Source: Gadus chalcogrammus (lineage: Eukaryota > Chordata > Actinopteri > Gadiformes > Gadidae). Taken from it: 64,000 nucleotides of DNA. This document shows positions 3,395 through 61,638 of the stretch, piece by piece. The DNA lies in the NCBI RefSeq assembly GCF_026213295.1, contig NC_079419.1, positions 26,265,206 to 26,329,205 of the forward strand, written 5' to 3'. Position numbers and translations under genes: made by a program. How positions within the stretch are numbered: position 1 is the stretch's first letter; every line of letters starts with the position of its first letter. The notes below the pieces were generated by a model that searched no databases, was not told the DNA's origin, and saw nothing but the letters and a program-made list of their open reading frames with translations.

Positions 3395-3809
3395 CGCAAC
3401 CCGATGTTCAGGAGCTCTGTGTGGCTGTAAAAATGTTTAGCTTCACACCACGTCCTAAGACACACTAAAAATACAAAAAACACGATCATAATACACTTAA
3501 ATAATACACTAAATAAGAGAGCCAAGAGCCGCTGCGTCCGTGCGCGCCGCCATAGCAACCGGAATATACTAAACCTATATAGTTCCCTTTCAAATGGTGT
3601 CCCATTTAGAAGGAACATGCCCTTTTGGGATGAGCAGCAGAGCTGAGTATGTGAGTTGCGCCCATGAAAAACTTGCCAAATCATCTCTGCCAATGCCAAA
3701 CAGCTTATTCTGCAATTAACTCGTTTGGTGTTTGGCGGATTGGATGATTGAAGTTTGAAGAAACAAGACATATTGGCAATGAAAAAATTTATTCATTTCA
3801 CAAACAGGA

Positions 3810-12042: not shown

Positions 12043-14694
12043 TTATTCCTTAGTTTCATTAAGCAAGCATATTTTGGTTATCGGTCGTTCAATGATATTT
12101 GTTTTGGTTTTTAAACGAACCACACGTACTAGACCTCTTTTATCAGGGAAGGTTTCCAGAACTCTTCCTAGCATCCATGACCCACGTGGTGCTGTGGAGT
12201 CTGCAACCATGACTAGGTCTCCAGGAACAAAACTCCTCTTCTCCTGGTTCCATTTTTGACGCTCCTGTAAAAGCGGGAGGTACTCACGGATCCACCTCTT
12301 CCAAAAGAGATCCGAGATGTACTGGGTTTGTTTCCATCTTCTCCTAGCATAAACATCCCTTTTGTCGAACAGTCCCGGTGGGAGAACTGGTTTTCCTTTG
12401 AGTAGCAGCAGATGGTTTGGCGTCAATGCCTCAAGGTCGTTAGGGTCCTCAGATAGCCTTGTGATGGGGCGATCGTTGAGCATAGCTTCAGCCTCACAGA
12501 GCACAGTATGGAACCCTTCGTCATCCAGGGTTTGCTGACGGAGCACCGAGCGCAAAATCTTCCTGATCATCCGGATCATGCGCTCCCAAGCGCCTCCGTG
12601 ATGCGACCCAGCTGGAGGGTTAAAGCTCCACTTGATTCCTCTTTTGGACAAGGCTCTTTCAATGCGGTCGTGATTCAAAGAGGCTAAGGCTTCTCGCAGC
12701 TCTCTTTCTGCACTGACAAAGTTGGTGCCATTGTCGGATCTTAAGTGTGAGACTTGTCCTCTTCGACAGATGAATCTACGCAATGCGTTGATGCACGAGT
12801 CTGTGTCGAGAGAATAGGCCACTTCCAGGTGCACAGCCCTGCTCGTCATACAAGTGAAAACCACTCCATATCTTTTCACGATGCTACGGCCTCTTCTCAC
12901 GTCAACTGGCCCAAAGTAATCTACGCCAACGTTAGTAAATGGTGGTAGATCAGGGACCACTCTCTCTTCTGGCAGGTCTGCCATTTTTTGCTCACCGGCC
13001 TTTCCACCATGGAGCTTACAGATGAGGCATCTGGATATGATCCTCCTCACTGCAGTAGGTCCACTCGTTATCCAGTATTTTCTCCTTGCAGCAGAAAGAA
13101 CATGATTTCTGCCTCCATGTCCGAGCTGTAGATGGATATGACGGAGGATAAGGTCGGAGATGTGTTGGTCTTTTGACAAGATGAGGGGATGTTTAATGTC
13201 CTCAGGGATTGCTGCCTTATTCAGCCATCCCCCAACTCGTAGAAGTCCTCCATCTAAAACTGGATCCAATCTGAAGATGCTGCTACTTCTTGGCACTTGT
13301 GGCTTGCCAGAGGTTAGTGCAGCAAATTCGGTTGGGAATCTCTCTTGCTGGCAAAAAGCGATTATGGAGGCCTCAGCCTCCAAGAGATCTTCCAGCGTCA
13401 CTTTCTGATTCCCAAGTGATGTTGAGAAAGCTTGCATCTCCTTTTGCACGTCCAACCTTGCTGCTCTAGTAGCACTGGTGCTTGCAAGCTCCAACTCCTT
13501 TCTCTTCTTACTCAGTTTGAGCAAAGTTCCTTTCAGCTTTATAAGCCATACAACTGCAACCTTTAATCTTTGCCAATCAGAGAAATGGGTCATCAGTTCT
13601 GATGTGGCATTGGTGTCAACAAGTACTGCATTGACCGTCAGACTTCTCTTTACTTCTGGGTCATCGACAGCGACACTTGTATCCATAGGAAATGTTGGCC
13701 ACGTTTCTTCAGGTTCCCGTAGGAATTCTGGGCCTTCCATCCATCTTTGCTTCACAAGATCTTCTGCTTTCAATCCACGTGAAGCATCATCAGCAGGGTT
13801 CAGGGAAGTGGGAATGTATCTCCACTGTTCAACTTCAGAGTTGTCCCTGATGGTGGTTACCCTGTTTGCGACGAAGGTTTGAAATCGTCGGTCCTCGTTT
13901 CTTATATACTTAAGAACTGATGTGCTGTCAGTCCAAAAGCAGGCCCTCTTCAGTGGAAGCTGGAGCTCTGCTTGAAGCATCTTGTCCACTCTTACTGCAA
14001 CAACGGCAGCGGTGAGTTCTAAACGGGGAATTGTGACCGGCTTTAGGGGAGCTACTCTGGCTTTGCCAAATAGGAAAGCAACATGAACCTGTTCATCCAT
14101 GTCCTGCATCCTCAGGTAAGTAGCCGTCCCATATCCGTTCTCGCTTGCGTCGGCGAAGTGATGTAGTTGTGCACTGACAGTCCTCCCAAATCCTTCAGGC
14201 TTAACACATCTGTGGATCTTGAAATATGCCACCTTCTCAAGATCCATCAGCCATTTTTTCCACTTCTGCTGGAAAGCTGGAGGTATTGGATCGTCCCAAT
14301 CACACTTCGTCCTGCATAACTCCTGCAACAGCAGCTTGGCGGGGAGTACAAAAGGTGCTAGGAATCCCAATGGATCGTAGACGGAACTGATGATAGATAG
14401 CATGCCTCGCTTGGTTGGCGGCTTCTCCTTGACCTTCAGCTTGAATTTGAAAGTGTCCGTCTCGATACACCACTGCAAACCCAAAGCTCTGTCCAACGGC
14501 AGCTTATCCCTGTCCAGATCAAGCTCATGCAGGTTCTTGGACTTGAGATCCTCTGGGAGGCTTTGAAGCACTTCCCGACTATTACTAATCCACTGAGTGA
14601 GGGTAAAACCTCCTTTTCTGCAAACGGTTGTAAGGTTCTTAACCATGGTGACTGCGTTTTCCTCAGAGGGCAGACTCTTCAGCAAATCATCCAT
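12043..14694 (-). CDS. BEL/Pao pol, C-terminal part: RT end, RNase H, integrase, DUF5641
   Basis: 883 codons. The frame begins at the catalytic MDDLLK box of the reverse transcriptase. It continues through the peptidase_A17-associated RT/RNase H region (CWTDSTSVLKY; LNPADDASRG), a zinc-binding integrase N-terminus (LGHGGRNHVL; CLICKLHGG) and the integrase core. The core shows DYFGPVDV, LRSDNGTNF and an E-containing GGAWERMIR, giving the DDE triad. The end has the WKRWIREYLPLLQER and PGDLVMVAD block of DUF5641, typical of BEL/Pao. It is open throughout. The start is not a true initiation site: it is separated from gag-pro-RT by a one-base frameshift at the T-run 14715-14718. Confidence 0.93.
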   Translation of the reverse strand: MDDLLKSLPSEENAVTMVKNLTTVCRKGGFTLTQWISNSREVLQSLPEDLKSKNLHELDLDRDKLPLDRALGLQWCIETDTFKFKLKVKEKPPTKRGMLSIISSVYDPLGFLAPFVLPAKLLLQELCRTKCDWDDPIPPAFQQKWKKWLMDLEKVAYFKIHRCVKPEGFGRTVSAQLHHFADASENGYGTATYLRMQDMDEQVHVAFLFGKARVAPLKPVTIPRLELTAAVVAVRVDKMLQAELQLPLKRACFWTDSTSVLKYIRNEDRRFQTFVANRVTTIRDNSEVEQWRYIPTSLNPADDASRGLKAEDLVKQRWMEGPEFLREPEETWPTFPMDTSVAVDDPEVKRSLTVNAVLVDTNATSELMTHFSDWQRLKVAVVWLIKLKGTLLKLSKKRKELELASTSATRAARLDVQKEMQAFSTSLGNQKVTLEDLLEAEASIIAFCQQERFPTEFAALTSGKPQVPRSSSIFRLDPVLDGGLLRVGGWLNKAAIPEDIKHPLILSKDQHISDLILRHIHLQLGHGGRNHVLSAARRKYWITSGPTAVRRIISRCLICKLHGGKAGEQKMADLPEERVVPDLPPFTNVGVDYFGPVDVRRGRSIVKRYGVVFTCMTSRAVHLEVAYSLDTDSCINALRRFICRRGQVSHLRSDNGTNFVSAERELREALASLNHDRIERALSKRGIKWSFNPPAGSHHGGAWERMIRMIRKILRSVLRQQTLDDEGFHTVLCEAEAMLNDRPITRLSEDPNDLEALTPNHLLLLKGKPVLPPGLFDKRDVYARRRWKQTQYISDLFWKRWIREYLPLLQERQKWNQEKRSFVPGDLVMVADSTAPRGSWMLGRVLETFPDKRGLVRVVRLKTKTNIIERPITKICLLNETKE

Positions 14695-20963: not shown

Positions 20964-21596
20964 TGTCGTGCCAATTTCTGTATCAGATATTGCGTCTAAG
21001 CAGATGAGATATTTAGATGCAAAAAAGCACACAATACTGTTGACAATTAATGATTATATATATTTGTAATAAAAGTATGAACAAAGATACATCACAACAT
21101 GCATCAACAAACAACATAACAGGCATACATTACAATAATCTGAGGCCTCAGATGGGAGCTTCTCTTTGCGTGTTACTTGATTCTCTGAAGATACGCTGCA
21201 GAAGTCCACTGAGTAGCTAAAGTCAGGAGCTTTTATACACTTAGATCGGATCCTTGAGGGCAGTTGGCCCCCATAAACGAAAAACCTTTGTTAACCAGAT
21301 GTTAATCTATTGATTGAAGTTTCTTCAGAGGTTAAAAGGTGGTTGAGGCTGTTCCTTATCACCCTTTGCTTCTCTACGCTCCCCAGGGGGTCAAGTAAAA
21401 CAGGCCCAAACCAAACTACAGACAACATGGAAACGGAATGTGAAACCAGATTACATCACATGAAACACTAAGAATTACATTTTAGAAGACCTTGCAGAAT
21501 TCCAAGAACGGGATGTGAAACCAGATTACATCACATGAAACACTAAGAATTACATTTTATAAGACCCTGAACATAACATGTAGATTTTCCATCACA
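20964..21596 (-). repeat. retrovirus 3' LTR with TATA box
   Basis: Bounded by TGTCG...ATCACA on the plus strand. It keeps a TATAAAAGCTCC promoter element on the minus strand at about 21230-21236. The opposite LTR lacks about 100 bp here. Confidence 0.9.
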
Positions 21597-25191: not shown

Positions 25192-25193
25192 AC

Positions 25194-25730
25194 TGTCGTG
25201 GCAATTTCTGTATCAGATATTGCGTCTAAGCAGATGAGATATTTAGATGCAAAAAAGCACACAATACTGTTGACAATTAATGATTATATATATTTGTAAT
25301 AAAAGTAAGAACAAAGATACATCACAACATGCATCAACAAACAACATAACAGGCATACATTACAATAATCTGAGGCCTCAGATGGGAGCTTCTCTTTGCG
25401 TGTTACTTCATTCTCTGAAGGTACGCTGCAGAAGTCCACTGAGTAGCGGTTTCTTCAGAGGTTAAAAGGTGGTTGAGGCTGTTCCTTATCACCCTTTGCT
25501 TCTCTACGCTCCCCAGGGGGTCAAGTAAAACAGGCCCAAACCAAACTACAGACAACATGGAAACGGAATGTGAAACCAGATTCACATGAAACACTAAGAA
25601 TTACATTTTAGAAGACCTTGCAGAATAGCAAGATTCCAAGAACGGGATGTGAAACCAGATTACATCACATGAAACACTAAGAATTACATTTTATAAGACC
25701 CTGAACATAACATGTAGATTTTCCATAACA
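25194..25730 (-). repeat. retrovirus 5' LTR lacking its TATA region
   Basis: For a minus-strand provirus this is the 5' LTR, next to the primer-binding site. Compared with 20964-21596 it lacks about 100 bp after GAGTAGC, including the TATAAAA box. Other small indels show that the two LTRs have diverged. Confidence 0.9.
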
Positions 25731-29805: not shown

Positions 29806-31420
29806 GACACACCTTTCGGGTCACCATCAACTGTCCCTGGTATGCAGCCAATGGGTGGTAATCATTCAAAGCCTCTGACTCCAGAATTTCTGTATCCATG
29901 AAACAACTATCAATGAGTTGGTATGATCTGTAATGTTCCAGGAACCAAGACGATAGCTTTGCAGTGACAAAATACACTTTCTCAAAGTCCACCAAAATGT
30001 TCAGTATCTTGAAGAACTCTGGTAGGCCACTGCATTGACCAGCAGACAGGATCATGCCTTTTACACTTTGTGTTCCGAACAAATGAACATCTTTGGCAAA
30101 TGACACACTATCTTGACTTGGATACTTCTTTTGAATGACCGTCCTGATTTTTTCATCTAAAGATGATATTTTGACATTGTCCATGCTACCAATATGCAGT
30201 TTTGGTTTGAATAGTCCTTGGCCATCGAGGAAATATGCCATCATTTGTTGATGTTTAGAAGAGAGAGTCAGTAGCACATTCCTGAAACAGTGAGCATCAC
30301 GCATCACCTTTTTGAAAAAACTGTGCTTAGATTCAAATCTAAGTGTCCACTAAAGGTCCAAAGCAGTGTGTGAGATGTACATAATGCTCGATAAAGTCAT
30401 GTTTTGGGCGCAACTTAAAGTAAGGAAAGGTGTCAATGAGCAACTGCCGATATTTTACTCTCCAGGTAACGCAATATTTCCTCTGATAACGTGGTAGACA
30501 CAACAATTTCGACTTTCCCTTTGAGGTCCATCAGAATTTCCCATGATGGTTCCCGTTCTGGTATATCATGAAAGGTAGCAAACGTAAAAGTGCCCAACTT
30601 TCGTGTCCACACTGATTCTCCCAGTTCCAATGCTAGCCTTTGTAATTTGCTGCGGCTTGTTGACCTTATCAGACAATTTGTATGGGAACAGCTTTATGCG
30701 TCTATTCAGTCCATCAAATGTAAGGAATCTTTTTCTAATCAATTCTTTCAAACATAAACATAACTCCACAGTGATAACACCTTCAAATAAGTCATGCAAA
30801 ATATCTGGGGGGAACCCAGTGACTGGATCGAAGTATGACAAGTTACTCAGTACACAGGCTGATTTAACACCATTCACACTTTGTTTGTCACTAGACTTGA
30901 GCTCTTCAACAAATGTGCCATGCTGCCTCACAGTTCTTAATGGAAAATCTCTTGGATCAACATTCGCAATTTGATCTTGGCAAATACAACAAAATCTGCA
31001 GAATTTTTCTACATTGAAAGATTCATGAAAACATGCTAAGCTACGAGCACCAAGATTATCAGCACATACACAGAATATTGTTCCTTTTACAAACTTATCT
31101 AAAACCTCTACAACAACCCCATCTCTTTCAAGAGATTCAACGTCCTTCATCAATGGATAAAGAAATGATTCATACCCAAACTGTTTAACGTCATTACTCT
31201 TTCCAAGAAAAGCCATCTGAATTAAGGGGAGCGTAGAACGAAACTTGCCCGGTAAATTGAGCAAAACGCAATAGACAGCATTGATCTTATGGATTTTTTT
31301 AGATGTCCCCAAAGGATTACATATTTCTAAGTAGTGTAGAATATTGGTGTATTTTAGTGTCTCTCTGTGTTCACATTTCTAGTCTAGGAACAGGCCAGTG
31401 CCTCAAACACTGATACAAGG
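29806..31420 (-). pseudogene. SAMD3-like multicopy gene, transposase-like core
   Basis: Minus-strand frames at 30566-31312, 30433-30630 and 29806-30307 form one decayed protein. Landmarks in order are ICNPLGTSKKIHKINAVYC, KQFGYESFLYPLMKD, CADNLGARSLACF, a Cys-rich FCRFCCICQ, GFPPDILHDLFEGVI and KHQQMMAYFLDG, ending at LMVTRK followed by a GTGTGT donor at 29805. The PPDxxHDLxEG block resembles motifs in large transposases, but I cannot name the superfamily. Frame breaks at about 30600 and 30310-30430 disable it. The retroviral LTR begins at 31421. Confidence 0.65.
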
Positions 31421-38162: not shown

Positions 38163-39308
38163 CAGGGGGAAATTGTTAATTTGACAGCCATAATGTAATC
38201 CACAAAGATAACACCTTTTTACAAACTGCCCATGGGCTAGCTAAGGCTAAAGGGGGGCAGACGTGTTGGGTTTGTGGGCTTATGCCATCTTCATCTCAGG
38301 TATATCCTTACCTTGCTGTCCCGTTTACCATCCCAGAGTATATTGCAGCTTACAAACATGATGTCATCGGAGGTACCCCTAGATCTGGATCTGTAGCAGC
38401 ACCACAGGTTCCCTATTATTTAGGTCCCCCAATTAAGATCAAATTGAGCTATGCTCCTAAGGGTGTCATTTGTTGGACCAATGAAGGAAAGGGGCGGGAT
38501 ATGGGTAAGAGTGTGTGTTCATATTCAGCTATTGTGGGCCAGGAACAGGTTTCCATATCAGAGAAGAATCTGTTGGTGAATGTCCCCCTACCCCCATTAA
38601 CCCGCGTGCCTGGTGCTTCACCTGGCCAAACGATTGCCACTGATGCCTTGCCTGCGGTAAATGGGACAATGTTTGTGTGTGGACAGGACCCTTATTCATA
38701 TCTGCCTCCTAATTGGAGTGGTTCATGTTATGTCGCCTATGTAGTGCCTGCTTTGGCGATTGTGTCAGAGGAACATTTGAAGGGTAATGCTACAATTAGA
38801 TCTAAGCGTGATTTATTCCATCAGAATTTTCAAGTTGCTACTCCAACTCAAAGAGTCTTTTCTGCTATCATTCCACACTATGGTATCACAGTTGCTCTTG
38901 ACGAGATTAGAGATTTAGTACATATTATTGACGCTATAGTGAACGCTTCCGGCCATGGCCTGACTGACCTTAATCATGAATTGTACGGGCTTAGAACAAT
39001 AATTTACCAACATCAGTATCTATTGGACTTCCCTGCTGTGCATCTTGGAAGGTACTGTTTCTTTATCGAGCGCCATTTACACCAGAGATGTTGCACATAC
39101 GTCCCGGATGCGTCTACGAATGTGTCTAATTATGTACATGACATCTATGATAATGTGGCTAGGCAGAAGTTGGAAACTGCGACTTGGTCTTTGGGAGGAT
39201 GGCTAAGTGAGTTGGGTGGGTCGATGTTTTCTCAGATAGTCCAAATCGCACAGCCATTTGTCCTTCCCGTTATTATGCTCTATGTGGTAGTCAAGTTAGC
39301 TCTCTGTT
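38163..39308 (+). pseudogene. retroviral envelope glycoprotein, truncated by Harbinger
   Basis: A candidate splice acceptor (TTTTTTTTACAG) ends at about 38162. The surface subunit contains CWVC at 38264-38275, a CXXC motif of gamma-type Env. The first Met in the open frame is 38282, after that motif, so the natural start lies upstream and is lost or spliced. A furin site RSKR is at 38798-38809. The transmembrane subunit has heptad-like Leu/Ile positions, a Cys followed by 10 residues and Cys-Cys (39056-39094), and a hydrophobic anchor near 39240-39300. From about 39309 the frame reads into the Harbinger end. 37317-38162 shows nothing convincing. Confidence 0.88.
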
Positions 39309-39526
39309 GGGGCTTTCACACCAAAAAGAACCAAGAGCCAGTTCCGGGCTGGTGCTAGGGCCAGTTCCAAACTGGTTCCAGCCTTATCCCAGTTAAGAAC
39401 CGGTTGGTTTCACACCGGCCAGAGCCAGCCATGGAGCCGGCGAGAGCAACGTCATGACGTCACTGCAAACGTCTGCTTACGTCTCCGCTTTACCAGCAAC
39501 CCTCGCAGTTTCAAACAACAAGAACA

Positions 39527-39797: not shown

Positions 39798-40733
39798 TTA
39801 ATATTGTTGCGGATGGCAAGGCGGAGGCCACACCCTATCTGGGCGCACCCGCAGTCTCCACACTGGTGGGAGACAATTGTTCCCGATTTCAGCCCGCAAC
39901 AATTCGTGCAGAATTTCCGTGTGTCCCGGGAGTTGTTCGAATACATCTGTGACCGTCTAAGGCTTGCGTTGGGGAGAAGGGATACCAACTTCCGTTTGTG
40001 TGTCCCGATTCGAAAACGTGTCGCCATTGCCCTATGGAAGCTGGCCACCTGGAATGAGTACAGGACCATCAGCCATCTGTTTGGAGTCGGCGTCAGTACT
40101 GTGTGCAATGTGCATATGTGTTCAGGCGTTCTGCAGCGCGGCCATCAAGGTGCTGCTTCCCATTCACATAAGAACCCCCGATGCTGAAAAGTTGGTGGAG
40201 ATGGCAACTTTCTTCCAAAACCGTTGGAGACTACCACAGTGTGTTGGTGCAATTGATGGAAGCCACATTCCTATACTGGCACCAGAGGAATACACACGTG
40301 ACTACTACAACTGGAAAGGATGGCATTCTGTAGTTTTGCAGGCAGTTGTAGATGGCAAAGGACTTTTCTGGGATGTCTGTGTTGGCTTTCCTGGAAGTGT
40401 GCACAACGCCAGAGTGCTGAGACAGTCACAGCTGTGGGAAGTACTCGGTGACGGGGAGTTACTGGGTCAAAACAAGGTGACCATCTCGGTCTGTTGTGGA
40501 GATGTGTTTTGGAAAGAAATGACAGCAAACTGGAGCTCAGCAAGAAGATGGCGCTGACCTGCTGTGTTCTTCACAATATCTGTGAGGAACATCGTGACAA
40601 TTTTGCATTGGAGGTCACGGATAGGCCTGTTAACATTCAGCCACACGGGCAAGCTTTACCTGAGCATGGCAATCTGGAAGGGTCAAACATAAGAGCTGCA
40701 TTAATGGCGTACTTTAACAGAGGGGATGAGTGA
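39798..40733 (+). pseudogene. HARBI1-like transposase, frameshifted and deleted
   Basis: The N-terminal domain has FVQNFRVSRELFEYICD, RVAIALWKLAT and ISHLFGVGVSTVC. A small insertion shifts the frame at about 40110. The DDE_Tnp_4 core then has VGAIDGSHIPI (first Asp) and GFPGSVHNARVL, where the usual second Asp reads Asn. A deletion after LLGQNKVTI (about 40480) removes the conserved GDSAYPL region and the third acidic residue. KLELSKKMALTCCVLHNIC closes the protein, in another frame. Normally the nuclease acts with the Myb-like partner. 40740-41074 is 3' untranslated DNA with AATAAA at about 40914. Confidence 0.88.
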
Positions 40734-41074: not shown

Positions 41075-44000
41075 TCATTTGGTCTTCATTTTCGCCCAGC
41101 CTCCATCCCCGTCACAACACGTCCCATCAGCCCGGTCAAAGCGGTGTTGCTTGTGCTGATCTGCTCCTGTCACCACTCTGGAGGCCTCCAGGGATTGGAG
41201 GTGGCTCTCGTCAGACCTCTCCAGGTACTGCAACAATTCGCTGTCGTCCTTATCCCACTTTCTTTTTCCTGTGTACAAGAAATATTATATCAGATTTATA
41301 TTGTATACTCATAACATTTAAATGCACCTTTTAGCAGGGGACTAAATATCCTGCTAAATGCAGATCATAAAGTAATGTATTGTTTCTTGCAGGTAAGTGT
41401 AGCTGGAGTTGGTTTGATACGACTATAGTAGGATGTTGTCAGTATTTCACAGGGTGTACAGATGAGTACACCAAATCTTTCAACCCGGTATCACGCAATT
41501 GCGTGCTCCTGCGCACGAACGTTAATCTATTGAAGCGTGTTCCCGAGCACGATAGTCCGACTTTTTGCGTTTTACACAAAACGAAATGTAAACCAATGCA
41601 TTCTGAATGGGAGTGTTCTAAGACAATTAACGTGCTCCACAAAACGGTACGAGAGAGAGAGAAAGAGAGAGCGGGAGGGACAGAGAGAGAGAGGCTTCAG
41701 AAAGGGTGTGCGCAGATAGTACAGTGCACCCTAGTTATGTTTATGCCAAAACCTATATAATTAGGCTGTGGAAATTGCAATAAGTTAAGAACACAACTTC
41801 GCACGTTGAGCACACAGCCGTGTGACTCGTTTATTTTGTAAAAAAGAAAACCGGAAAACAAAGCGTGCTGAAGGTAAACAAATCCAGCATGGTCTGTGAC
41901 GTCATGAGACGCACGTAATCCTTAGGGACCGCGATCCCTGAACCACCAAGAACGTAAATGACATGCAGTAAACAACAACACAATTGAAAGAACAACACAT
42001 AACGAAATACTGTAGGTGAATTATGTTACGGTCACTACAAGGCTATAATTATATTATTTAGCGTGTAATGAGACAATCTATAGCCAAATTGTCGAAGATG
42101 CCCGAGAATCTTCGGGGATATCAGCATGGGAAATCGGCGAATCAGACCCATGAAGGGGGGGGGGGGGGGGGGGACACGTTAGTTGAAGGGGGGGGGGGGG
42201 GGGGGAGGACACGTTTGTTGAGGGGGGGGGAGACACGCTCGACAACGAGAGTTGGTTTTTATTGAACGCTCGACAACGAGAGTTGGTTTTTATTGAACGA
42301 GACTTCAACACGGAACAGCTGCACGAATCGAAGGTCACGTCACTCTCGGTGACGGTGTCGACAATAATGAACACACGAACAATGTTAATAGAACAACACA
42401 CAACCACATAACATCCCGAACCCATTAACCCCACTTAATCCTAACAACAAAACAAGTTAACAAAAGCCCCATTTGTCAACTGAGAACCCCAATTCCCAGA
42501 ATCCCCCGCGGCTCCGGAACACGGCGTAGCTTATATTAATCTTTATTATCTGAATGGGAAATGCAATATTTTAGGACAGATACACCATTAAACGCGTTTC
42601 TAATGACATTTCTAGCGAGAAATGTACATTTTCCTTACATAATCTTCAGTCAGTGAATGTGTATGATCTTTATTAATCTTTATTATCTGAATGGGAAATG
42701 CAATATTTTAGGACAGATACACCATTAAACGCGTTTCTAATGACTTTTCTAGCGAGAAATGTACATTTTCCTTACATAATCTTCAGTCAGTGAATGTGTA
42801 TGATCTTTATTAATCTTTATTATCTGAATGGGAAATGCAATATTTTAGGACCGATTCACCGTTAAACGTGTTTCTAATAACATTTCTAGCGAGAAATATA
42901 CTTTTTACTTGCATAATCTTCAGTCAGTGATTGTGTCTGATCTTTAGTTTTATAGTTATTAGGATTTGATCGGCTCGCTCGCATGTTTCAACGACGTCAG
43001 GTTGCTTTCGCTAAACTAGCAGCTCACGTGCTTCCTGCGTTTGTGTTATTAAACTGTTACTTTATGTAACTTTTAATGATATCATCTTGTTAGAAACACG
43101 TATATCTGAGAGCCAACCCAGTCGCCAAAAGCATACGTTGACAGTGTACTTTTCGTGAACACTGGATTACGTCGCATTTCAACATAAAATAGCGTGTTAT
43201 ACACACACACACACACACGCACGCACAAGCACAGACACACACACACAAGCACACACAAGCACACACACGCACGCACAGACACACAGACACACACACACAC
43301 ACGCACACGGTGCATTTCGCTGCTAAAACAACAACAAAAAAATATTCCCTCAAATATTATTACTTTCAAAACGTTGGCCAAAATGGCCAATAATATCATT
43401 TTTTATTTGGGATGCTTCTAGGACATTTTGGGTGGATTTTGAACGGTATGTGGGGGGCACGTTTTTTGCAGGACCTGGCAACCCTGCGCTGTTGCCCGAG
43501 ATCTGGATCCACCCCGGCGTGGTGCCGTCTCCTTTTGACCTTTTGACCCCAGACTTCTGGGGGAATAGCTGAATCAATTCATTAGTCAATCAGAAGCATG
43601 TAAATATCGTCCCGGTGGCGTAAGAGGACGAACAAGGTGTCCTTCAACATCTACGCTTCCAGGAGATTGCAACGGTGCCACACATGAGCATATTCGAACA
43701 TGTTTAATGGTAGTAATTAGCTGTCGAAATTGGAGGCCTTAATCAATACTGAGCAGCTATTGATTTGCTGCCCGATAAAGATTTGTCACAAATGACATGT
43801 TATTTAGCATCTACACGTTGAGCTGAGTCCAATGACACCAAGAACGACACTCTAGCTAATGGTAACATGTGTTTTACATGGTACACCCAGGTCTAGGACA
43901 TGATCTCGGTGTAGCAAGAGGCCGAGCTTGATCTCATTGGACTCAGCTTAACGTGTAGATGCTAATTAACATGTAATTTGTCAAAAATCTCCATCGGGAA

Positions 44001-46634
44001 GCAAATCTATAGCTGGTCATTATTGATAAAGGCCTCCAAAATCGACAGCTAATTACTACCCCGAAACATATTCAAATATGATCATGTGTGGCACTGTTGC
44101 AATCGTCTCGAAACGTAGATGTCAAAGGACACCTTGTTTGCTCTGTTGCACCACCGGGAAGATATTTTCATACTTCTAATGGATTGATTCATATTTTAAG
44201 GTTCTCGGAGTGAGACTTTAAGTGGCTGCAGCAGAAGTGTTGAGACGAAAGATTATATCAAGAGATTTATAGAATATTCCCATTCACATTATGATTCTTC
44301 GTCGTAACATCCGACCAAACATCCTTTACATTCACAGAGCGAAGATTATGAAAGTCCAGGCTCAGCAAGTGCTCCATCTCGTTGCACCTGCACCCAGCGG
44401 CTCGCTTGCAAGATTTTGGCCTGAAGTTCTTCCCAGACCAGCTGTGTCTACACACCTTAAACCACAAATGTACACCTCCATCCCACAAAAAATGGGGACT
44501 AGAAACTAACCTCTGTCTTATGTACATTTACTGTACTGTTGGAGGTCACGCCCCTTTGCCGACCTTTTCGAGATAGCTAGGGATGCTAAAATGTTTACAC
44601 ACATTTCCCGGGGCCCCGTGTACGACATATCCGAGATTTGGAGTTCTAGCCCTTTCCCAAATCGAGTGTCATTTGGACAAAGCCCATCAGAAGTGTAGCC
44701 TGCAAGGCCTAATGGTTCAGAATGTGGTGGAAAAACAGTTTTTGAGATAGGAAGGTCCTACCGCCCTGAAATTTTAATACCTTATTCTAGGGCCTAACTG
44801 GGACCTCCGCACCGAAACTTGGCCCGGTCGGACCTGAGGGCAGGAAGGGGGGGCCTGCCCTCGGGGTCTGACCGGGCCAAGTCTCGGGCAGGAAGGGCCC
44901 CCCCTTCCTGCCCTCGGGGTCCGACCGGGCCAAGTTTCGGTGCGGAGGTCCCAGTTAGGCCCTAGAATAAGGTATTAAAATTTCAGGGCGGTAGGACCTT
45001 CCTATCTCAAAAACTGTTTTTCCACCACATTCTGAACCATTAGTCCTTGCAGGCTACACTTCTGAGGGGCTTTGTCCAAATGACACTCCATTTGGGACAA
45101 CTTTTTTTCTCTAAGGGCTAGAACTCCAAATCTCGGATATGTCGTACACGGGGCCCCGGGAAATGTGTGTAAACATTTTAGCATCCCTAGCTATCTCGAA
45201 AAGGTTGGCAAAGGGGCGTGACCTCCAACAGTACAGTAAATGTACATAAGACAGAGGTTAGTTTCTAGTCCCCATTTTTTGTGGGATGGAGGTGTACATT
45301 TGTGGCTAAAGGTGTGTAGACACAGCTGGCCTGTGGCCACGTTTTTGAAGTCGGGGGTCAAAAGGTCAAAAGGAGCCGGCACCACGCCGCTTATGAGATA
45401 ACAAAAAGTTAATGTGTGTTTCTCTCATAACTTTTTGTCATTATTAAAGAGAGGCCTGATTCTCAGATATGCATGTTGGATGGCTAGGGTGTAGGTCTGG
45501 GAAGAACTTCAGGCCAAAATCTTGCAAGCGAGCCGCTGGGTGCAGGTGCAACGAGATGGAGCACTTGCTGAGCCTGGACTTTCATAATCTTCGCTCTGTG
45601 AATGTAAAGGATGTTTGGTCGGATGTTACGACGAAGAATCATAATGTGAATGGGAATATTCTATAAATCTCTTGATATCATCTTTCGTCTCAACACTTCT
45701 GCTGCAGCCACTTAAAGTCTCACTCCGAGAACCTTAAAACATGAATCAATCCATTAGAAGTATGAAAATATCTTCCCGGTAGGTGCAACAGAACAAACAA
45801 GGTGTCCTTTGACATCTACGTTTCGAGACGATTGCAACAGTGCCACACATGATCATATTTGAATATGTTTCAGGGGTAGTAATTAGCTGTCGATTTTGGA
45901 GGCCTTTATCAATAATGATATTAGATTAGATTTGCTTCCCGATGGAGATTTTTGACAAATTACATGTTAATTAGCATCTACACGTTAAGCTGAGTCCAAT
46001 GAGATCAAGCTCGGCCTCTTGCTACACCGAGATCATGTCCTAGACCTAGGTGTACCATGTAAAATACATGTTACCATTAGCTAGAGTGTCGTTCTTGGTG
46101 TCATTGGACTCAGCTCAACGTGTAGATGCTAAATAACATGTCATTTGTGACAAATCTTTATCGGGCAGCAAATCAATAGCTGCTCAGTATTGATTAAGGC
46201 CTCCAATTTCGACAGCTAATTACTACCATTAAACATGTTTGAATATGCTCATGTGTGGCACCGTTGCAATCTCCTGGAAGCGTAGATGTTGAAGGACACC
46301 TTGTTCGTACTCTTACGCCACCGGGACGATATTTACATGCTTCTGATTGACTAATGAATTGATTCAGCTATTCCCCCAGAAGTCTGGGGTCAAAAGGTCA
46401 AAAGGGGACGGCACCACGTCGGGGTGGATCCAGATCTCGGGCAACAGCGCAGGGTTGCCAGGTCCTGCAAAAAACGTGCCCCCCACATACCGTTCAAAAT
46501 CCACCCAAAATGTCCTAGAAGCATCCCAAATAAAAAATGATATTATTGGCCATTTTGGCCAACGTTTTGAAAGTAATAATATTTGAGGGAATATTTTTTT
46601 GTTGTTGTTTTAGCAGCGAAATGCACCGTGTGCG

Positions 46635-46700
<66 letters not shown>

Positions 46701-48755
46701 TGTGTCTGTGTGTCTGTGCGGGCATGTGTGTGCTTGTGTGTGTGTGTCTGTGCGTGTGCGTGCGTGTGTGTGTGTGTATAACACGCTATTTTATGTTGAA
46801 ATGCGACGTAATCCAGTGTTCACGAAAAGTACACTGTCAACGTATGCTTTTGGCGACTGGGTTGGCTCTCAGATATACGTGTTTCTAACAAGATGATATC
46901 ATTAAAAGTTACATAAAGTAACAGTTTAATAACACAAACGCAGGAAGCACGTGAGCTGCTAGTTTAGCGAAAGCAACCTGACGTCGTTGAAACATGCGAG
47001 CGAGCCGATCAAATCCTAATAACTATAAAACTAAAGATCAGACACAATCACTGACTGAAGATTATGCAAGTAAAAAGTATATTTCTCGCTAGAAATGTTA
47101 TTAGAAACACGTTTAACGGTGAATCGGTCCTAAAATATTGCATTTCCCATTCAGATAATAAAGATTAATAAAGATCATACACATTCACTGACTGAAGATT
47201 ATGTAAGGAAAATGTACATTTCTCGCTAGAAAAGTCATTAGAAATCGCGTTTAATGGTGTATCTGTCCTAAAATATTGCATTTCCCATTCAGATAATAAA
47301 GATTAATAAAGATCATACACATTCACTGACTGAAGATTATGTAAGGAAAATGTACATTTCTCGCTAGAAATGTCATTAGAAACGCGTTTAATGGTGTATC
47401 TGTCCTAAAATATTGCATTTCCCATTCAGATAATAAAGATTAATATAAGCTACGCCGTGTTCCGGAGCCGCGGGGGATTCTGGGAATTGGGGTTCTCAGT
47501 TGACAAATGGGGCTTTTGTTAACTTGTTTTGTTGTTAGGATTAAGTGGGGTTAATGGGTTCGGGATGTTATGTGGTTGTGTGTTGTTCTATTAACATTGT
47601 TCGTGTGTTCATTATTGTCGACACCGTCACCGAGAGTGACGTGACCATCGTTTCGTGCAGCTGTTCCGTGTTGAAGTCTCGTTCAATAAAAACCAACTCT
47701 CGTTGTCGAGCGTTCAATAAAAACCAACTCTCGTTGTCGAGCGTGTCTCCCCCCCCCTCAACAAACGTGTCCTTAAAGTTCGTGCGCAGGAGCGCGCAAT
47801 TGCGTGATACCGGGTTGAATCTTTACTGTGTGTCACAGCCTGGTGGTAAGATGAATATATCTTAACGTTTACATGGTGTCTGTGAAGCATACTTTATAAA
47901 TAACACAACATTTTTACCGTGTCTGGCAAGTGAAGTGTTGGAGCTTCCAAGGCTGGACGGTGATGGTGATGGTGAGCTACAACTCAGCGGCGGTGGTAGC
48001 TCCGCGTTACAATACTCTTCTACGGCAGACAACTCTGTAAACAACAATGCTTTAAAACAAACTTTTCCCAAACAATGTATACAAGGTTAGACCCTTGTGG
48101 AACCAAATGCAATGTGTGTAGGAAGCCTGTAGTTGAGCAATGACAGGTGTTGCACGCTCACATTTTATATTGTTACAGCGATAGCTCAAGTAGGAGGCTT
48201 GTTATTATCAGTTACAGTAGCTAGCTAGCTGCCGGGCAGCTAACATTGTACGAACACATAGCCACGGGACTTAACATAACACTAATTATAAAACGCACAG
48301 CAAGGTACATGAATGGTGGTTGGGAGACGGACTGAAACATTTGAAAAGTGGAACTTACCGATATCAGGGGTGCTTTGGATGAGCGACTCGTCCACCATCG
48401 ACTCCAGCATGGCCGTCGCAGAATTCAAGGCCCCGGTGATTTTGCATGCCGGTCTGTCGCCGAGGACCGAGTCTAGGACATCGAAATGTGGACCTTTCTT
48501 TGGCCGTCCATTGCCGCTTCCCCCCAGGTCTTTTTTCTGGTCCCTGAAGTTCTTCTTCAACTTTTTCATTTCATTTACAATCTGCTCGGCGCTCCGGTCA
48601 TACCCCGCCGCAGTCATCTCCCGCTGCAGCTGCTCGAAGACAACCTTCGTCCGGGTTGCTCCTTCTAACTTCTTCTGGACCTCGGCAGAAGACCAAAATC
48701 CAAGGAGACAGGTTGTCTCCTCCACGGTCCACTGCGATTTTGTCTTCCCGTCCAT
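41075..48755 (-). CDS. Harbinger Myb/SANT-like DNA-binding protein, three exons
   Basis: Exon 1 is 48359-48755 (ATG at 48755), exon 2 is 47918-48034 and exon 3 is 41075-41268. Donors GTAAGT and GTAAAA and acceptors TTGTTTACAG and TTGTACACAG fit the consensus. The phases join exactly, giving 708 nt and 235 residues plus stop with no internal stop. The N-terminus has the Myb/SANT-like trihelix (SQWTVEETTCLLGFWSS; NEMKKLKKNFRDQKKD). A Ser/Pro-rich linker and a basic C-terminus follow. The protein brings the transposase to the TIRs. A 6.3-kb palindrome sits in intron 2. Confidence 0.85.
41523..42202. repeat. left-arm-only segment with dispersed repeat copy and poly-G tracts
   Basis: This 680-bp stretch has no mirror partner: in the right arm, GTGCGCAGGA near 47782 is almost adjacent to ACACGTTTG's complement. 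It includes another copy of the dispersed repeat of 1-318 and two poly-G runs (about 42154-42171 and 42189-42206). Confidence 0.75.
42541..42955. repeat. three 137-bp tandem repeats, left arm
   Basis: CTTTATTATCTGAATGGG starts at 42541, 42678 and 42815, a period of 137 bp, with the third copy more diverged. Mirrored copies lie at about 47030-47450. Confidence 0.92.
43610..44215. repeat. secondary palindrome within left arm
   Basis: GTTGAGCTGAGTCCAATGA (about 43816) is answered by TCATTGGACTCAGCTTAACG (about 43934), and flanking blocks mirror out to about 43670 and 44110. The axis is near ACATGTGTTTTACATGGT at about 43870. The halves differ at scattered bases, so it is older than the main palindrome. 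Confidence 0.88.
45775..46335. repeat. secondary palindrome within right arm
   Basis: Mirror copy of 43610-44215 with the same internal axis near GTACCATGTAAAATACATGT at about 46052. It confirms that the small palindrome existed before the large one formed. Confidence 0.85.
47030..47450. repeat. three 137-bp tandem repeats, right arm (mirror)
   Basis: The reverse complement of 42541-42955. Each unit contains CCCATTCAGATAATAAAG. The diverged copy is again the innermost, so the tandem array predates the arm duplication. Confidence 0.9.
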
Positions 48756-51479: not shown

Positions 51480-53062
51480 ACCGCCGGCTACAGGCTCCAA
51501 TTTTCGTCCACTCCTCCCCGTTTCAACGGGATACTGCAGTCGCAGGCCCGTGGAGAGAAAGCTCAGGTTCTACAGGAGGAAATCACCTCTCTAAGAAACA
51601 AAAGGGCAATTCGGGTAGTGCCACCGGAGAAAAACCAAAGCGTTTTTTACTCGAGGTACTTTCTAGTCCCGAAGAAGGGAGGGGGCCTCCGGCCGATATT
51701 AGATTTACGCGCTCTGAACAGATACATGAGACAGTACAGTTTCAGGATGCTGACACACGCCGCTCTCATATGCTTCGTGCGCCCGGGAGGCTGGATCTCA
51801 AGCATAGATCTGAGGGACGCTTATTTCCATATCGCCATTTATCCCCCTCACAGGAAATATCTCAGGTTCGCCTTCCAGGGCGTAACGTACGAGTATTTGG
51901 TTCTCCCGTTCGGCCTTTCGTTAAGTCCACGGGTGTTTGTGAAATGCACGGAGGCTGCCATCGCGCCCCTCAGGTTGAAGGGAATGCGTTTGGCAACATA
52001 TATAGACGACTGGCTTCTAGCCACACAGTCGCCCCAGGAGGCTCAGGCGCAGACTATTGGGTCTGATGGCGTCGGCGCTGGTAGTAGTCCCACTTGGCCG
52101 CCTCCATATGAGGCCGGTTCAGCGATGGGTTGCATCACTTAGACTGAACCCGACGTGCCATGGCCATCACCGGGTTTTGATCTCCATGGCATGCGTCTCG
52201 GCGCTGCGCCCTTGGGGACGCGCGTACTTTCTGACTACAGGCGTTACCATGGGAACTGTCCTGGCGAGGAAGGTCCTTTCAACGGATGCCTCTCGGGCGG
52301 GCTGGGGAGCCGTATACGAGGGCAGATCAGTAAATGGCACTTGGAGCTCACATATGCAGTTTGTTCACATAAACTGCCTGGAACTTCAGGCGGTGTCACT
52401 GGCGCTGAAACATTTTCTTCCCTTTCTGAGAGGGCAACATGTTCTAGTCAGGACGGACAACACCACGGTGGTGGCGTATATAAACCGTCAGGGGGGGCTG
52501 CGCTCCCCTCAAATGCACACGTTGGCACACAGACTGACCATTTGGGGCAACGCCCACCTGTTGTCGCTGAGAGCAACACACGTGCCGGGCGCGCGGAACT
52601 GGGGAGCAGATTTAATGTCCAGGGGCGACCCTCGCTACAAGGACTGAAAACTCCACGTCGTGGTCGTGAACCAGATATGGGAGAAATACGTTCGAGCAGA
52701 GGTCGATCTCTTTGCATCAGAGGAGAACACTCAGTGCCCTCTGTTCTATTCCCTAACCGGTCGGAGCGCCCCAATGGGGCTGGATGCTTTGGCATACGAG
52801 TGGCCGCGCGTCCTCCTGTACGCTTTCCCCCCATTAGAACTGATCATTCCTACTCTCGCCAGGGTGCGAGAGAAGGGTCATGCGCTGATCCTTATAGCCC
52901 CCCGTTGGCCGGGGAAATATTGGTTGACGGAAATAGTCCAGTTGCTGTGCGGCCAGCCTTGGCCTCTGCCTTTACGAAGGGACCTCCTGACGCAAGCGCA
53001 TGGGGAAATCTTCCATCCTCATCCGGAGCGCATGGCTCTATGGGCCTGGCCCGTGAAAGGAT
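51480..53062 (+). pseudogene. DIRS reverse transcriptase, RNase H and DIRS-specific domain
   Basis: RT motifs run QEEITSLRNKRAIRVV, FYSRYFLVPKKGGGLRPILD, ISSIDLRDAYFHI, LPFGLSLSPRVFVKC and the catalytic ATYIDDWLL. The frame shifts at about 52050 into RNase H (STDASRAGWGAV with catalytic Asp; LELQAVSLALK; VRTDNTTVVAYINRQGG; ADLMSRGD). A TAA/TGA-type stop near 52645 precedes the third part, which has EVDLFASEENTQCPLF and LYAFPPLELI, found after RNase H in DIRS elements. Copying is by RT; integration uses the recombinase downstream. Confidence 0.88.
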
Positions 53063-54107
53063 GAACCTAACGGCGGCTGGACTCCCATTGAATGTCATTA
53101 CGACTATCCAGGGCGCCAGGGCTTCCTCCACGCGTAGCGCATATGAAGGGAAATGGCGTGCGTTCGAGGATTGGTGCGCGAAAGCTGGGGAAATAGCTTT
53201 CCAGAGTCCCGTGCCTGTTATTCTGACATTTCTACAGGATTTGCTGGATAAAGGCCGGGCTTTCTCCACTGTCAAAGTGTACTTGGCCGCTATATCGGCT
53301 TGTCACATAGGTTTTGGGGACAAATCGGCAGGTCAGCACCCTATCGTTTGCCGGTTTATGAAAGGTGCACGCCGTCTTCGGCCGGTGTTGCGGAGCTTGG
53401 CTGCTCCTTGGGATTTATCTACGGTGCTTGATGCACTGTCACGCCCACCGTTTGAGCCCTTACAACAGGTAGAGCTTAAGACGCTCTCGTTTAAGACGGC
53501 TTTGTTGCTCGCGTTGGCCTCGGCTAAACGCACTAGTGACATCCATGCGCTGTCGGTTAGCCCGACGTCTATGCAGTTTTTGCGGGGGAACTCAAAGGTT
53601 CTATTAAAGCCGAACCCTGCGTTTGTTCCCAAGGTATTCGACTCTGCGTTGTCATACCGCCCTATTGAGCTGTTGGCTTTCCATTCTCCCCCTTTCTCCT
53701 CCCAGGAGCAGGAGCGGCTGAATGCGCTCTGCCCGGTGCGGGCTTTACGCGTCTATGTTGATAGGACGGCTGGATTCAGGAAATCGGAGCAGCTGTTTGT
53801 ATCATGTGCTACGTCACATCTGGGGAAGCCTCTCTCGAAGCAGCGTTTATCACACTGGATCGTGGGGGCTATAGCCATGGCTTATAGTAGCGTGGGTTTG
53901 GAACCCCCTATCGGCCTGCGCGCACATTCGACTCGCGGCATGTCCGCATCCTGGGCACTGTTTCAGGGGGTCTCAGTGGAAGAGATATGTGCGGCTGCCA
54001 GCTGGGCGACGCCTCACACTTTCGCTAGATTCTACAGGTTGGATGTTACTGCGCCTAATCTGTCTCACACAGTCTTGAGCGTTGGATCGGTGAACATGCC
54101 TGTTTGA
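52900..54107 (+). CDS. DIRS tyrosine recombinase
   Basis: The C-terminal about 400 codons of a frame open since 52155. The frame overlaps the RT/RNase H region in another phase, as usual in DIRS, and the true start is not certain. A core-binding domain begins near ASSTRSAYEGKWRAFEDWC. The catalytic domain shows the R (SAKRTSDIH, Arg 53529-53531), the HxxR box (AHSTR; His 53925-53927, Arg 53934-53936) and the nucleophilic Tyr (ARFYRLD, 54033-54035). No stop or shift is visible. The enzyme joins a circular DNA copy to the genome. The whole tetrad pattern is present, so it may be functional. Confidence 0.92.
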
Positions 54108-57890: not shown

Positions 57891-58390
57891 AAAGAGGGAG
57901 AGAGAGAGAGAGAGAGAAAGGTTTCAGAAGGGGTGTGCAGATAGTACAATGCACCCTCCACTTATGTTTGTGTCAAAACAATAAATGCATCATGAAATGC
58001 CCACGGAAAATAATCTATTGAATCGTGCCCCAGAACATGATTGTCTGACTTATTTTGTGCTAGACAGAACAATACTTAAACCATTGCCGTTCATTGCCTA
58101 TTGCCTATTTTCTTCGACCACAGAAGAGTTGTGCGCAGATAGTACAGTGCACCCTCTACTTATGTATGTGTCAAAACAACAAATGCATCAAAGGGTAAAT
58201 GTAGTGTATTAGGGATACTCTGATTTCCCCGTTTTTTACAGCAGACCTCCTCAAAAACTTTTTGTTCTCACGCTCACGGAAAGTAATCTATTGAATCGTG
58301 TCCCAGAGCGGTTGTCCGACATTATTCATACTGCACAAAACGAAATGTAAACCCATGCATTTTGAATTGGAGCGTTTCTCAAATATACAC
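57890..58390. repeat. dispersed non-coding repeat, copies 3 and 4
   Basis: Two partial units carrying TAATCTATTGAATCGTG, ACAAAACGAAATGTAAAC and CAGATAGTACAGTGCACCCT, as in 1-318 and 41523-41735. (AG)n opens the stretch. Confidence 0.75.
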
Positions 58391-59042: not shown

Positions 59043-61638
59043 CTAAACTCCAACTAGCCCGTTCCTGTTTAAGCAGTTACGGCTAATTAGACTCACTACT
59101 GCTACTACAGGTGGAATTATAAAATGACAAATCGGTTTTGGACTTGAACGAGCTCCCCGAATGACTGCAGCATACTCAGCTGGAACATGTACATCTCGGT
59201 TCCTTAACTTTCTTTCGATCACACTGTGCACAGAGTCACATTCCATCTGTGTGTGGCCTCTTTGAAGGTACTTCTGCGTCACTTGCTTTTTTCTTTCAGT
59301 GGCAAACTTTAAGAGGGCATTGCTCAGGACCAGGTTTCGGTTTTGATAACCACACCCATCACTCCAAAGAATGAATTCAGTGTAAGTGGGGTGTGTTTCA
59401 AGATAGTCCACAATGCAGGAGGCAAACTCATTGGCAGAGACCCCCCCTCACCCTCATGCCAAAGGTAATTTGTCGCTTCATGTGATGCCATATTGTAGAT
59501 GGTAAAATTATGGACACCAAGCTTCATTTTGTAGTAGAGGGCAGACGCTTGAAGCTTTGGGCAGAGGAGAAGGCCCTGCAGATCCATGCATGCAACCAAG
59601 GTGGTGTTATTTGCAAGTTGTTTGTCCCTATCCTTTTTTGCTCGTGTCTCGTCCTTCTTAACGCAGTGTTCCTCCCACACAGCAGCCTCGATGTTCCCCG
59701 CTCTGAAGGCACAGCAAGTGTCACACTGATCTTTCTTTGGATGGAACAATGACAGATTTAAATCTTTAAAGGTGTTACTGAACACTTGTCTTGACAGAGG
59801 CTGGATGCCGTTGGCTGCACATGTCTGCTTATATTGTGAGTGGAGATGATTGATTGACTTGAATAAAGGCTCCAGGTACATCTTGGAAGAGGAGGACCTA
59901 CAGTAGTGCGATGGTACTTTCGGCAGTTTAAGAAGAAAGGACTTTAGGAAGTCCCGCTCCTCTGTCCTCACCCTCACTCTTGCCATCTTCTCAGGACTTT
60001 CCTCTCTTCTTCCAACCCATTTTAGAAAACTCCACTGCTTGATGCCAAGGGTCGACAGGAACATCCGCTGACAAACTCTGAGCCTTCTACCATCAACACA
60101 TAAAAAACAACAGAGAGATGGTGACCTTCGAGACTGAACTGCTTCTGTCCGGCGCCGCTTGACATCACTCACCTTCACCAGTCACTTCACGTAGATTTTC
60201 CTTTCTTTCCCCAAAAAATACTTGAATATTTCTTCCCTCTTCCCTTCATCGATTTCGGTGCAGTGTAGTTTGCTGGATTCCTGGCAGAACTCAGCCAGGC
60301 ACCGCCCCTCCATTTTTTTTTCTTCTTTGTTGATGAATTCATTTTTTTTCCGTCCAAGATATGATTGGCCCCTCATTCTTCTCCTTTTCTGGATGTTACC
60401 CTTCCAAGCATCTGGGTTGGCCCTCTTTCTTGACCTTCCCCAGTCAACAGCAATATCAACAGCATCTTCATATGATTAAAAGAAAAACAAAAGAAAACAT
60501 GTTTCACAAATTCACATTTCTCTTGCATGGTTTCTTAGCATGTGGAAGTATGTGTGTCAATGTAGGCATGCATTAAAGTTTGGCATTGCGCTATTGACAA
60601 TAAGTTACTCACCTTCATTGACAGGTGTGTATTCCGGGTCATTTTCAGGATCGTGTTCAAGTGAGTCTTAGAGCAATATAGAGGAACACATTTAGTACAA
60701 CAAATGCACTTATGACATCATTCTGATATAAGATTGCATTCATTTTGACTCATAATTGATTAAATACACTAGATTTGTAATTAGTAATGGGCTTTAGTCT
60801 GTCCAACTCAAAACCAATGTGAGGTGGAGGCTGCAGTGTAGCCTAATCTGAGAATAAGAATAATAAGATACTTACCATCACTGGCACTTTCAGAGTGATT
60901 GTCATAATCACTTTCCAGAGAATCTAACAACAATAAAATATAATGTACATTTAGCACGCTACAATGCTTGAACATTTCAGAACTGAGCAGCAAGCGTACA
61001 GTAACTATTCATTTTGAATTCTCTGAGTAATCATTTTTAATTTAGCTACATACAATTTGATGAGTTAGCATTTGGATTCCTTCCTTGATCAAGGGAATCA
61101 GAACAAGTGTGGCAGGCTTTCATCTTAATGTGCAACACATCAATAGGCTTTAGGTTGCAGAATAGTAGGTAGCTGCTACTGGGAGAAAAATAATTTAAGC
61201 CTAAAGTACCTACCCTCATTGGCAGCTGTATTTGCACCGTCACTTTCAACTGAATCTAACAATGACAGAGGGAAATCGGTGCGTTAACATCTCCGCAAAT
61301 GAAATCGTAGCAAGTTGGGTATAGTGTTGGAAATGCTCAGCCTCTACCAAGCGGTACGAGTGAGGCATGCTCTCGTGACAATCACGACAGTAACATTACA
61401 GTCTATAATTTGATCACTTAAACTAAGGAAAAAAACATATTTGTTTGAATCGTATCAATGTCACTGAGTTTATTTACCAACTAGCAAGCAAACAAGCAAG
61501 CTAATCTGTGTTTAGCCTACTTAATTTACGTTCGTCAGTCAGGTTCACAATAAAAAATATTCGGTGAAAATTACTCCATCTTATATTGCAACTAGAATAA
61601 ACTTGAGAACAGTTGACAAAAAAACAAAATACCTTACC
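59043..61638 (-). pseudogene. DDE-transposase-like gene (DUF7869-like), multi-exon
   Basis: Exon 1 ends at a GTAAGG donor (about 61633), then come three small exons (61214-61255, 60876-60923, 60613-60666) and a large exon from about 60466. The large exon has DWGRSRKRANPDAWKGN, a Cys/His stretch (CLAEFCQESSKLHC), CQRMFLSTLGI and a FHPKKDQCDTCCAFRAGN metal-binding-like site. It then has CMDLQ, YYKMKLGVHNFTIYN, LWSDGCGYQNRN and HTQMECDSVHSVIERK, which offer Asp, Asp and Glu for an RNase H-like core. A TGA stop at 60182-60184 and a one-base loss in a G-run (C-run 59441-59447) break it. Family naming is from motif memory. Confidence 0.75.
60613..61255 (-). other. three serial acidic micro-exons of 42, 48 and 54 nt
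   Basis: 61214-61255 (42 nt), 60876-60923 (48 nt) and 60613-60666 (54 nt), each with AG acceptor and GT donor on the minus strand. All begin around D-S-x-E and are rich in Asp, Glu, Ser and Asn. Lengths are multiples of three, so skipping any of them keeps the frame. They probably arose by exon duplication. Confidence 0.75.

Follow-up and report, generated by a model that had tools for sequence, protein, structure and literature searches.

A palindromic, multicopy foldback element with 7-bp target-site duplications in the genome of Gadus chalcogrammus

The closest described counterparts of the element analyzed here are the transposon Galileo of Drosophila and two palindromic families of Atlantic cod. 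Galileo, a member of the P superfamily, is described as generating 7-bp target-site duplications with the consensus GTANTAC, which lies within a 15-bp palindrome with the halves AANGT and ACNTT (PMC4168063, PMC2775673), and its longest-armed copies as never nearly complete (PMC3573991). The cod families gadMor-hAT-1784 and gadMor-hAT-8043 are reported to have palindromic consensus sequences with internal repeats and no open reading frame (ORF), are assigned to hAT and are proposed to take part in ectopic recombination; the transposase-less gadMor-hAT-1784 is located at Atlantic cod inversion breakpoints (PMC12368964). Judged by title and the start of the abstract, Tetris of Drosophila and Tm1 (Mutator/Foldback) of nematodes are alike in their foldback architecture. 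Here we analyze a 6,337-bp palindromic insertion in a 64,000-nucleotide stretch of Gadus chalcogrammus DNA (contig NC_079419.1, positions 26,265,206 to 26,329,205, forward strand), referred to as the window and numbered from its first base. Very probably, the insertion belongs to a non-autonomous foldback family of DNA transposons that carry terminal inverted repeats (TIRs) and are moved in trans.

The element resembles Galileo in its 7-bp duplications, its long foldback-like arms with internal tandem units and the existence of transposase-less copies consisting of arms only (PMC4168063, PMC3573991). In contrast, its arms measure ~3 kb, whereas those in D. mojavensis are given as 18–1,250 bp (PMC3573991), its target motif is another one, and no linked P transposase was found among the pairs listed; this comparison concerns features, end sequences aside. 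The two cod families are set apart by description only, with arms of ~600 bp built from 167–169-bp units as opposed to ~3-kb arms with 137-bp units here. An initial annotation of the window had suggested that the element may be an undescribed foldback family or a non-autonomous partner of a known one. The foldback family was borne out, but a palindromic transposase-less cod family is already in print (PMC12368964), and we regard the element as a member of a known foldback kind whose relationship to that family, if any, is judged by description only.

Ends, arms and precise insertion of the element

The inserted element extends from window position 41481 to 47817, in exact agreement with the boundaries of the initial annotation. 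At the left junction, the host sequence ...ACCA-AATCTTT is followed by the element start CAACCCGGTATCACG at 41481, and at the right junction the element end CGTGATACCGGGTTG at 47817 is followed by AATCTTT. CAACCCGGTATCACG forms both termini in inverted orientation, and the outermost 45 bp of the left and right TIRs are identical at 43 positions. Allowing up to three mismatches, the 15-bp end matched the window three times (0.87 matches expected; 6 of 100 shuffles reached three), and without mismatches it matched the two true termini only. Taken by itself, this short end is a weaker test of chance than the long arm matches.

Self-comparison resolved the arms into inverted pairs at 42206–42736/47243–47773 (99% complementary), 42734–43308/46670–47244 (96%), 43204–44009/45927–46732 (97%), 44153–44439/45494–45780 (99%), 44434–44654/45113–45333 (98%) and 44655–44853/44899–45097 (94%). 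These main segments of 199–806 bp span 42206 to 47773, and arm matches of 200–800 bp at 94–99% complementarity are not due to chance. The palindrome that had been noted from the sequence was thus recovered, but "nearly the whole element" proved too generous: the arm-to-arm repeat covers ~85% of it, and the ~3-kb arms are unequal, with ~680 bp of the left arm (41526–42205, inside the terminal 45 bp) unpaired on the right. No stop-to-stop frame of at least 130 amino acids (aa) occurs in the element, and the best Pfam match of the left arm, the part scanned in six frames, was PRA1 with an E-value of 0.53, in line with the absence of known domains noted earlier.

A DDE_Tnp_4 ORF and a Myb/SANT ORF, the pair expected of a Harbinger-like transposon, lie on either side of the element. 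Uninterrupted sites were sought in the genome with a query in which the flanks of the element were fused at one AATCTTT. One such site (L036, C10:8372146) matched with 93% identity over 396 bp and carries a single AATCTTT, and a second (L037, C3:10503652) matched with 88% over query positions 85–396 and has AATCTAT in its place. As intact copies of the host DNA exist elsewhere, the insertion was precise; the uninterrupted sites further demonstrate that the host sequence grew at a single point, by 6,337 bp and one 7-bp duplication. The single insertion event deduced earlier from the TIR ends and the AATCTTT on both sides is thereby confirmed. Coordinates of the features are listed in Table 1.

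Table 1 Features of the palindromic element and of the Harbinger-like transposon that it interrupts (window positions)
Feature	Position	Strand	Remarks
DDE_Tnp_4 ORF of interrupted Harbinger-like transposon	39964..40557	+	
Target-site duplication, left copy (AATCTTT)	41474..41480	+	Single AATCTTT at uninterrupted site L036, AATCTAT in L037
Left terminal inverted repeat, starts CAACCCGGTATCACGCAATTGCGTG, includes perfect palindrome CACGCAATTGCGTG	41481..41525	+	First 23 bp: 185 exact genome copies
Left-arm segment unpaired in right arm of window copy	41526..42205	+	
Left inverted arm	42206..44853	+	Self-comparison
Three tandem units of ~137 bp each in left arm	42534..42946	+	
CA-type microsatellite in left arm	43201..43308	+	
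Smaller inverted repeat nested in left arm (43581–43842/43927–44188, 84%)	43581..44188	.	
Central spacer of palindrome, 45 bp	44854..44898	.	200-bp core 44781–44980 also in other copies
Right inverted arm	44899..47773	-	Self-comparison
Three tandem units of ~138 bp each in right arm	47032..47445	-	
Right terminal inverted repeat (43/45 positions as left)	47773..47817	-	
Target-site duplication, right copy (AATCTTT)	47818..47824	+	
Myb/SANT ORF, presumably of same interrupted Harbinger-like transposon	48282..48755	-	

A family with common ends, targets and palindrome

The element is one of many copies in the source genome (630 Mb), and its arms and centre recur in other copies at unlinked loci. 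The first 23 bp of the end occurred 185 times in exact form, whereas the reversed control did not occur (0 matches). Among the 100 of these ends that were listed, neighbours less than 25 kb apart were convergent in 31 cases, divergent in none and tandem in one, and the convergent pairs were 3.9–19.1 kb long (median 6.8 kb). Sixteen copies picked from the best genome matches were read at both ends (the window copy, L009, L010, L011+L012, L013, L015, L017–L022, L024–L026 and L028), and 14 of them have identical 7-bp flanks; the flank match of L020 falls in a CA microsatellite, and L028 contains a second left end bearing the same flank. Three further copies (L014, L016 and L027) had only one end visible. 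A 16-bp end with a base other than C at position −7 occurred 622 times in the genome; the first 100 of these places gave 23 convergent pairs within 25 kb, of which 12 had matching flanks. Ends that differ at base 16 were found at 25 places, with no facing pair within reach. Self-complementarity reached at least 83% in 10 of the 14 copies measured; in L018, L019, L021 and L028 it was 25–68%, in some of them owing to nested insertions. The features of the foldback type were therefore found both in the long arms of the window copy and in the combination of terminal repeats with a duplication of constant length.

The target sites were analyzed using 88 distinct flanks, which remained of the first 100 listed after removal of duplicates and microsatellites. 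Outside the duplication, position −2 was C in 43 and G in 25 flanks, and position −1 was T in 44. Within the duplicated bases, 33 flanks had G at the first position, 41 had T at the sixth and 31 had C at the seventh (binomial p = 2e-6, 2e-5, 1e-5, 3e-4 and 0.03 for the C, T, G, T and C counts, respectively; taken against the flank composition and uncorrected). TG across the cut occurred in 21 flanks; the expectation is 4.6 when based on composition and 7.6 when based on how often TG occurs in the flanks. The family thus prefers a loosely palindromic target, (C/G)TG-N5-CA(G/C), which reads (C/G)TGANNNTCA(C/G) on both strands.

The arms were compared over a 1.1-kb stretch (22 arms from 14 loci; matches below ~1 kb dropped). 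Their identity was 99.14% within copies (8 pairs) and 98.99% between copies (223 pairs), the arms of different copies were interleaved in the arm tree, and no homogenisation of arms inside a copy was seen in this comparison. The 200-bp centre of the palindrome had full-length matches at 94–99% identity in seven other loci and partial matches in six more. Since the two arms of one copy resemble each other no more closely than they resemble the arms of other copies, and since the centre is common to the copies, the palindrome was multiplied as a unit and did not form anew in each copy. The divergence of ~1% among the sampled copies suggests a recent expansion.

Similar ends also delimit other content. 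The copy at C1:20538749, which is 14.4 kb long and has AGCCTAC as matching flanks, contains an inverted repeat in its inner 10 kb (97% over 3.1 kb and 95% over 0.57 kb), the part from which its content is known, the outer 2.2 kb on each side being unread; only ~80 bp of these 10 kb are shared with the arms of the window element. The flanks of C1:20666910 are those of this copy, of which it is probably a duplication. In L040, the 15-bp ends have two mismatches and one mismatch, the inverted pieces are short (up to 209 bp), and the flanks TGTCTTT and TGTCATT agree at six of seven bases. The 14.4-kb copy and L040 thus indicate that similar ends are common to elements of differing content. The sub-terminal segment of the window element has diverged copies at 57895–58376 (in tandem near 58 kb) and 1–316 of the window and is part of a large dispersed genome family (40 of 1,055 candidates scored); following these sub-terminal repeats through the genome yielded only relatives without a transposase of their own. 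One 10.7-kb relative with matched flanks (L030) carries a Myb/SANT-like domain at 3559–3759 on the minus strand (E-value 1e-12), which is either nested or part of the relative; the Myb ORF of the window was absent among the 20 longest matches between L030 and the window. Furthermore, a segment present twice in the window, 4.2 kb apart (20964–21136 and 25193–25366), recurs immediately internal to a related end at C2:12397615 (L041).

Several points speak against a family moved in trans. The 7-bp flanks differ in two of the 16 fully read copies (L010 and L025) and in 11 of the 23 pairs from the looser 16-bp search (its first 100 places), possibly because ends were mispaired, because copies are chimeric or because the family also spread in other ways. 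Only part of the family was read. Moreover, no transposase-bearing (autonomous) copy with the family ends was found among the copies and pairs examined. As such a copy is missing, we infer the moving enzyme: a transposase encoded elsewhere, putatively a trans-acting DDE transposase with cut-and-paste chemistry, would recognise the outermost inverted repeats, mobilise the palindrome whole, as one unit, and join it to a target cut with a 7-bp stagger at the loosely palindromic motif. The long arms would be passengers that favour recombination and not a requirement for movement.

Candidate sources of the moving enzyme

Among the candidate superfamilies we place P first, although only tentatively. 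According to this explanation, the mobiliser is a P-superfamily transposase and the family is related or analogous to Galileo, in which long, internally repetitive inverted arms make up most of the non-autonomous copies. Besides the likenesses to Galileo given above, the 7-bp duplication lies within the 7 or 8 bp of the P superfamily, the first duplicated base G and the last base C are as in GTANTAC, and P-superfamily genes are present in the genome (55 RNaseH_N and 49 GBD matches). However, none of these 104 matches fell inside 64 distinct convergent pairs (an incomplete list of pairs), 21 foldback loci yielded no P-protein remnant (best E-value 0.20), and the target (C/G)T|G differs from the Galileo halves AANGT/ACNTT as described (PMC4168063).

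Two P loci are located outside a convergent pair but no more than 20 kb from it (C15:26869441-26869888 and C8:25520877), and the P gene at C2:12391262 is 6.2 kb away from a single, genuine family end. The latter was probed with four short pieces, of which the one between the gene and the end (501 bp) matched no other locus. One P family starts with CATAGACATC. A TIR search around five P loci detected nothing, even for the P family with a visible left end; because it missed that end, the search was uninformative. As sources of the family, the P loci L029 and L031–L034 were rejected: in the fetched stretches, the 15-bp end with up to two mismatches occurred only in L029, where it belongs to a neighbouring foldback copy ~2.5 kb outside the P gene. 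The partly read P loci had ends other than those of the family, or none were detected. One of these loci (L034, C9:19030393-19060196) contains four P-type transposase-like ORFs of 870–890 aa in 30 kb, two of them in a 97% direct repeat.

Coding sequences within the family copies were likewise rejected as the transposase. Later, nested insertions appear to be the source of all four: in L013 a Gypsy-type polyprotein, in L012 a weak hAT-like fragment (no search aimed at hAT was made), in L018 a long interspersed nuclear element (LINE)-like reverse transcriptase and in L040 a decayed Harbinger-type fragment. Six-frame Pfam scans of L035 (1–4200) and L014 (1500–6000) revealed no family below an E-value of 0.05. 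Mutator-like elements (MULEs) had seven genome matches, none of which comes as close as 20 kb to any of the 64 listed pairs.

Another possibility, somewhat less probable than a P enzyme, assigns the ends to an as yet undescribed transposase lineage or to a relative of Dada that carries TIRs, with a 7-bp duplication and a CT|G target. The P and MULE searches placed no gene inside the listed pairs, which is weak evidence in its favour. Dada is described with 6–7-bp duplications and with CTGCG in four of five zebrafish targets, GCG being inside the duplication, a pattern akin to the CT|G seen at many of the targets here; on the other hand, it is described as lacking TIRs and inserting in small RNA genes (PMC3706591), whereas the window element has TIRs and sits in a Harbinger-like copy. 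The window, the stretch that was scanned for this purpose and hence one site of the family only, contains no tRNA and no Rfam match (0 and 0).

An unlikely origin, in our view, is that of a hAT-derived family similar to miniature inverted-repeat transposable elements, as proposed for gadMor-hAT-1784. Target duplications of hAT transposons are 8 bp long, compared to 7 bp here. A transposase-less, palindromic and internally repetitive fish family is indeed described, and the present assembly has chromosome-like contigs and a size in keeping with a fish, but its arms as published differ in length and units as stated above, and neither "TSD" nor "target site duplication" occurs in the main text (PMC12368964). 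Equally doubtful is the far-reaching proposal of a TIR transposase lineage outside P, hAT, Dada and Mutator, defined by the shared ends together with the 7-bp stagger and the target, whose non-autonomous members would have more than once become near-complete palindromes of at least 6 kb with differing arms while still transposing. An assembly artefact, named in the initial annotation as one outcome that would undo its reading, or a local inverted duplication has the size of the element as the sole point in its favour and can be dismissed almost with certainty, as the same ends, arms and centre recur at unlinked loci with different flanks and uninterrupted sites exist.

Genomic surroundings and palindrome stability

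The window is transposon-dense. Apart from the features in Table 1, it contains a BEL/Pao-type retroelement ORF and an env-like (TLV_coat) ORF above the Pfam cut-off as well as phage-integrase-like and Plavaka-like ORFs below it (as listed, at 12043–14694, 52155–54107, 30566–31312 and 38282–39358). A 284-aa ORF on the minus strand (59324–60178), with Pfam matches below the cut-off only, adjoins the repeats near 58 kb.

Exchanged 7-bp flanks have been described as a trace of ectopic inversion at Galileo breakpoints (PMC2775673). The listed ends include 16 pairs in the same orientation that are no more than 50 kb apart, and three of these pairs, at two places, had reverse-complement 7-bp flanks (TTCAGAC/GTCTGAA and GAATAAT/ATTATTC), a possible REARRANGEMENTS. 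The same-orientation ends in question are 25–37 kb apart (C1:593424 and 629932; C2:17553449, 17560573 and 17585481). The observation as a whole is a lead only, because in the C1 case the outer flanks leave the exchanged pattern incomplete.

Palindromes of several kilobases should be unstable and tend to promote inversions. In cod, palindromic elements have been proposed to have a role in rearrangements (PMC12368964), as has Galileo in Drosophila (PMC2775673). With many copies that carry one inherited palindrome, one of them with a proven uninterrupted site, the family described here offers a natural test of how palindromes survive transposition, and the same copies also test whether palindromes seed rearrangements.

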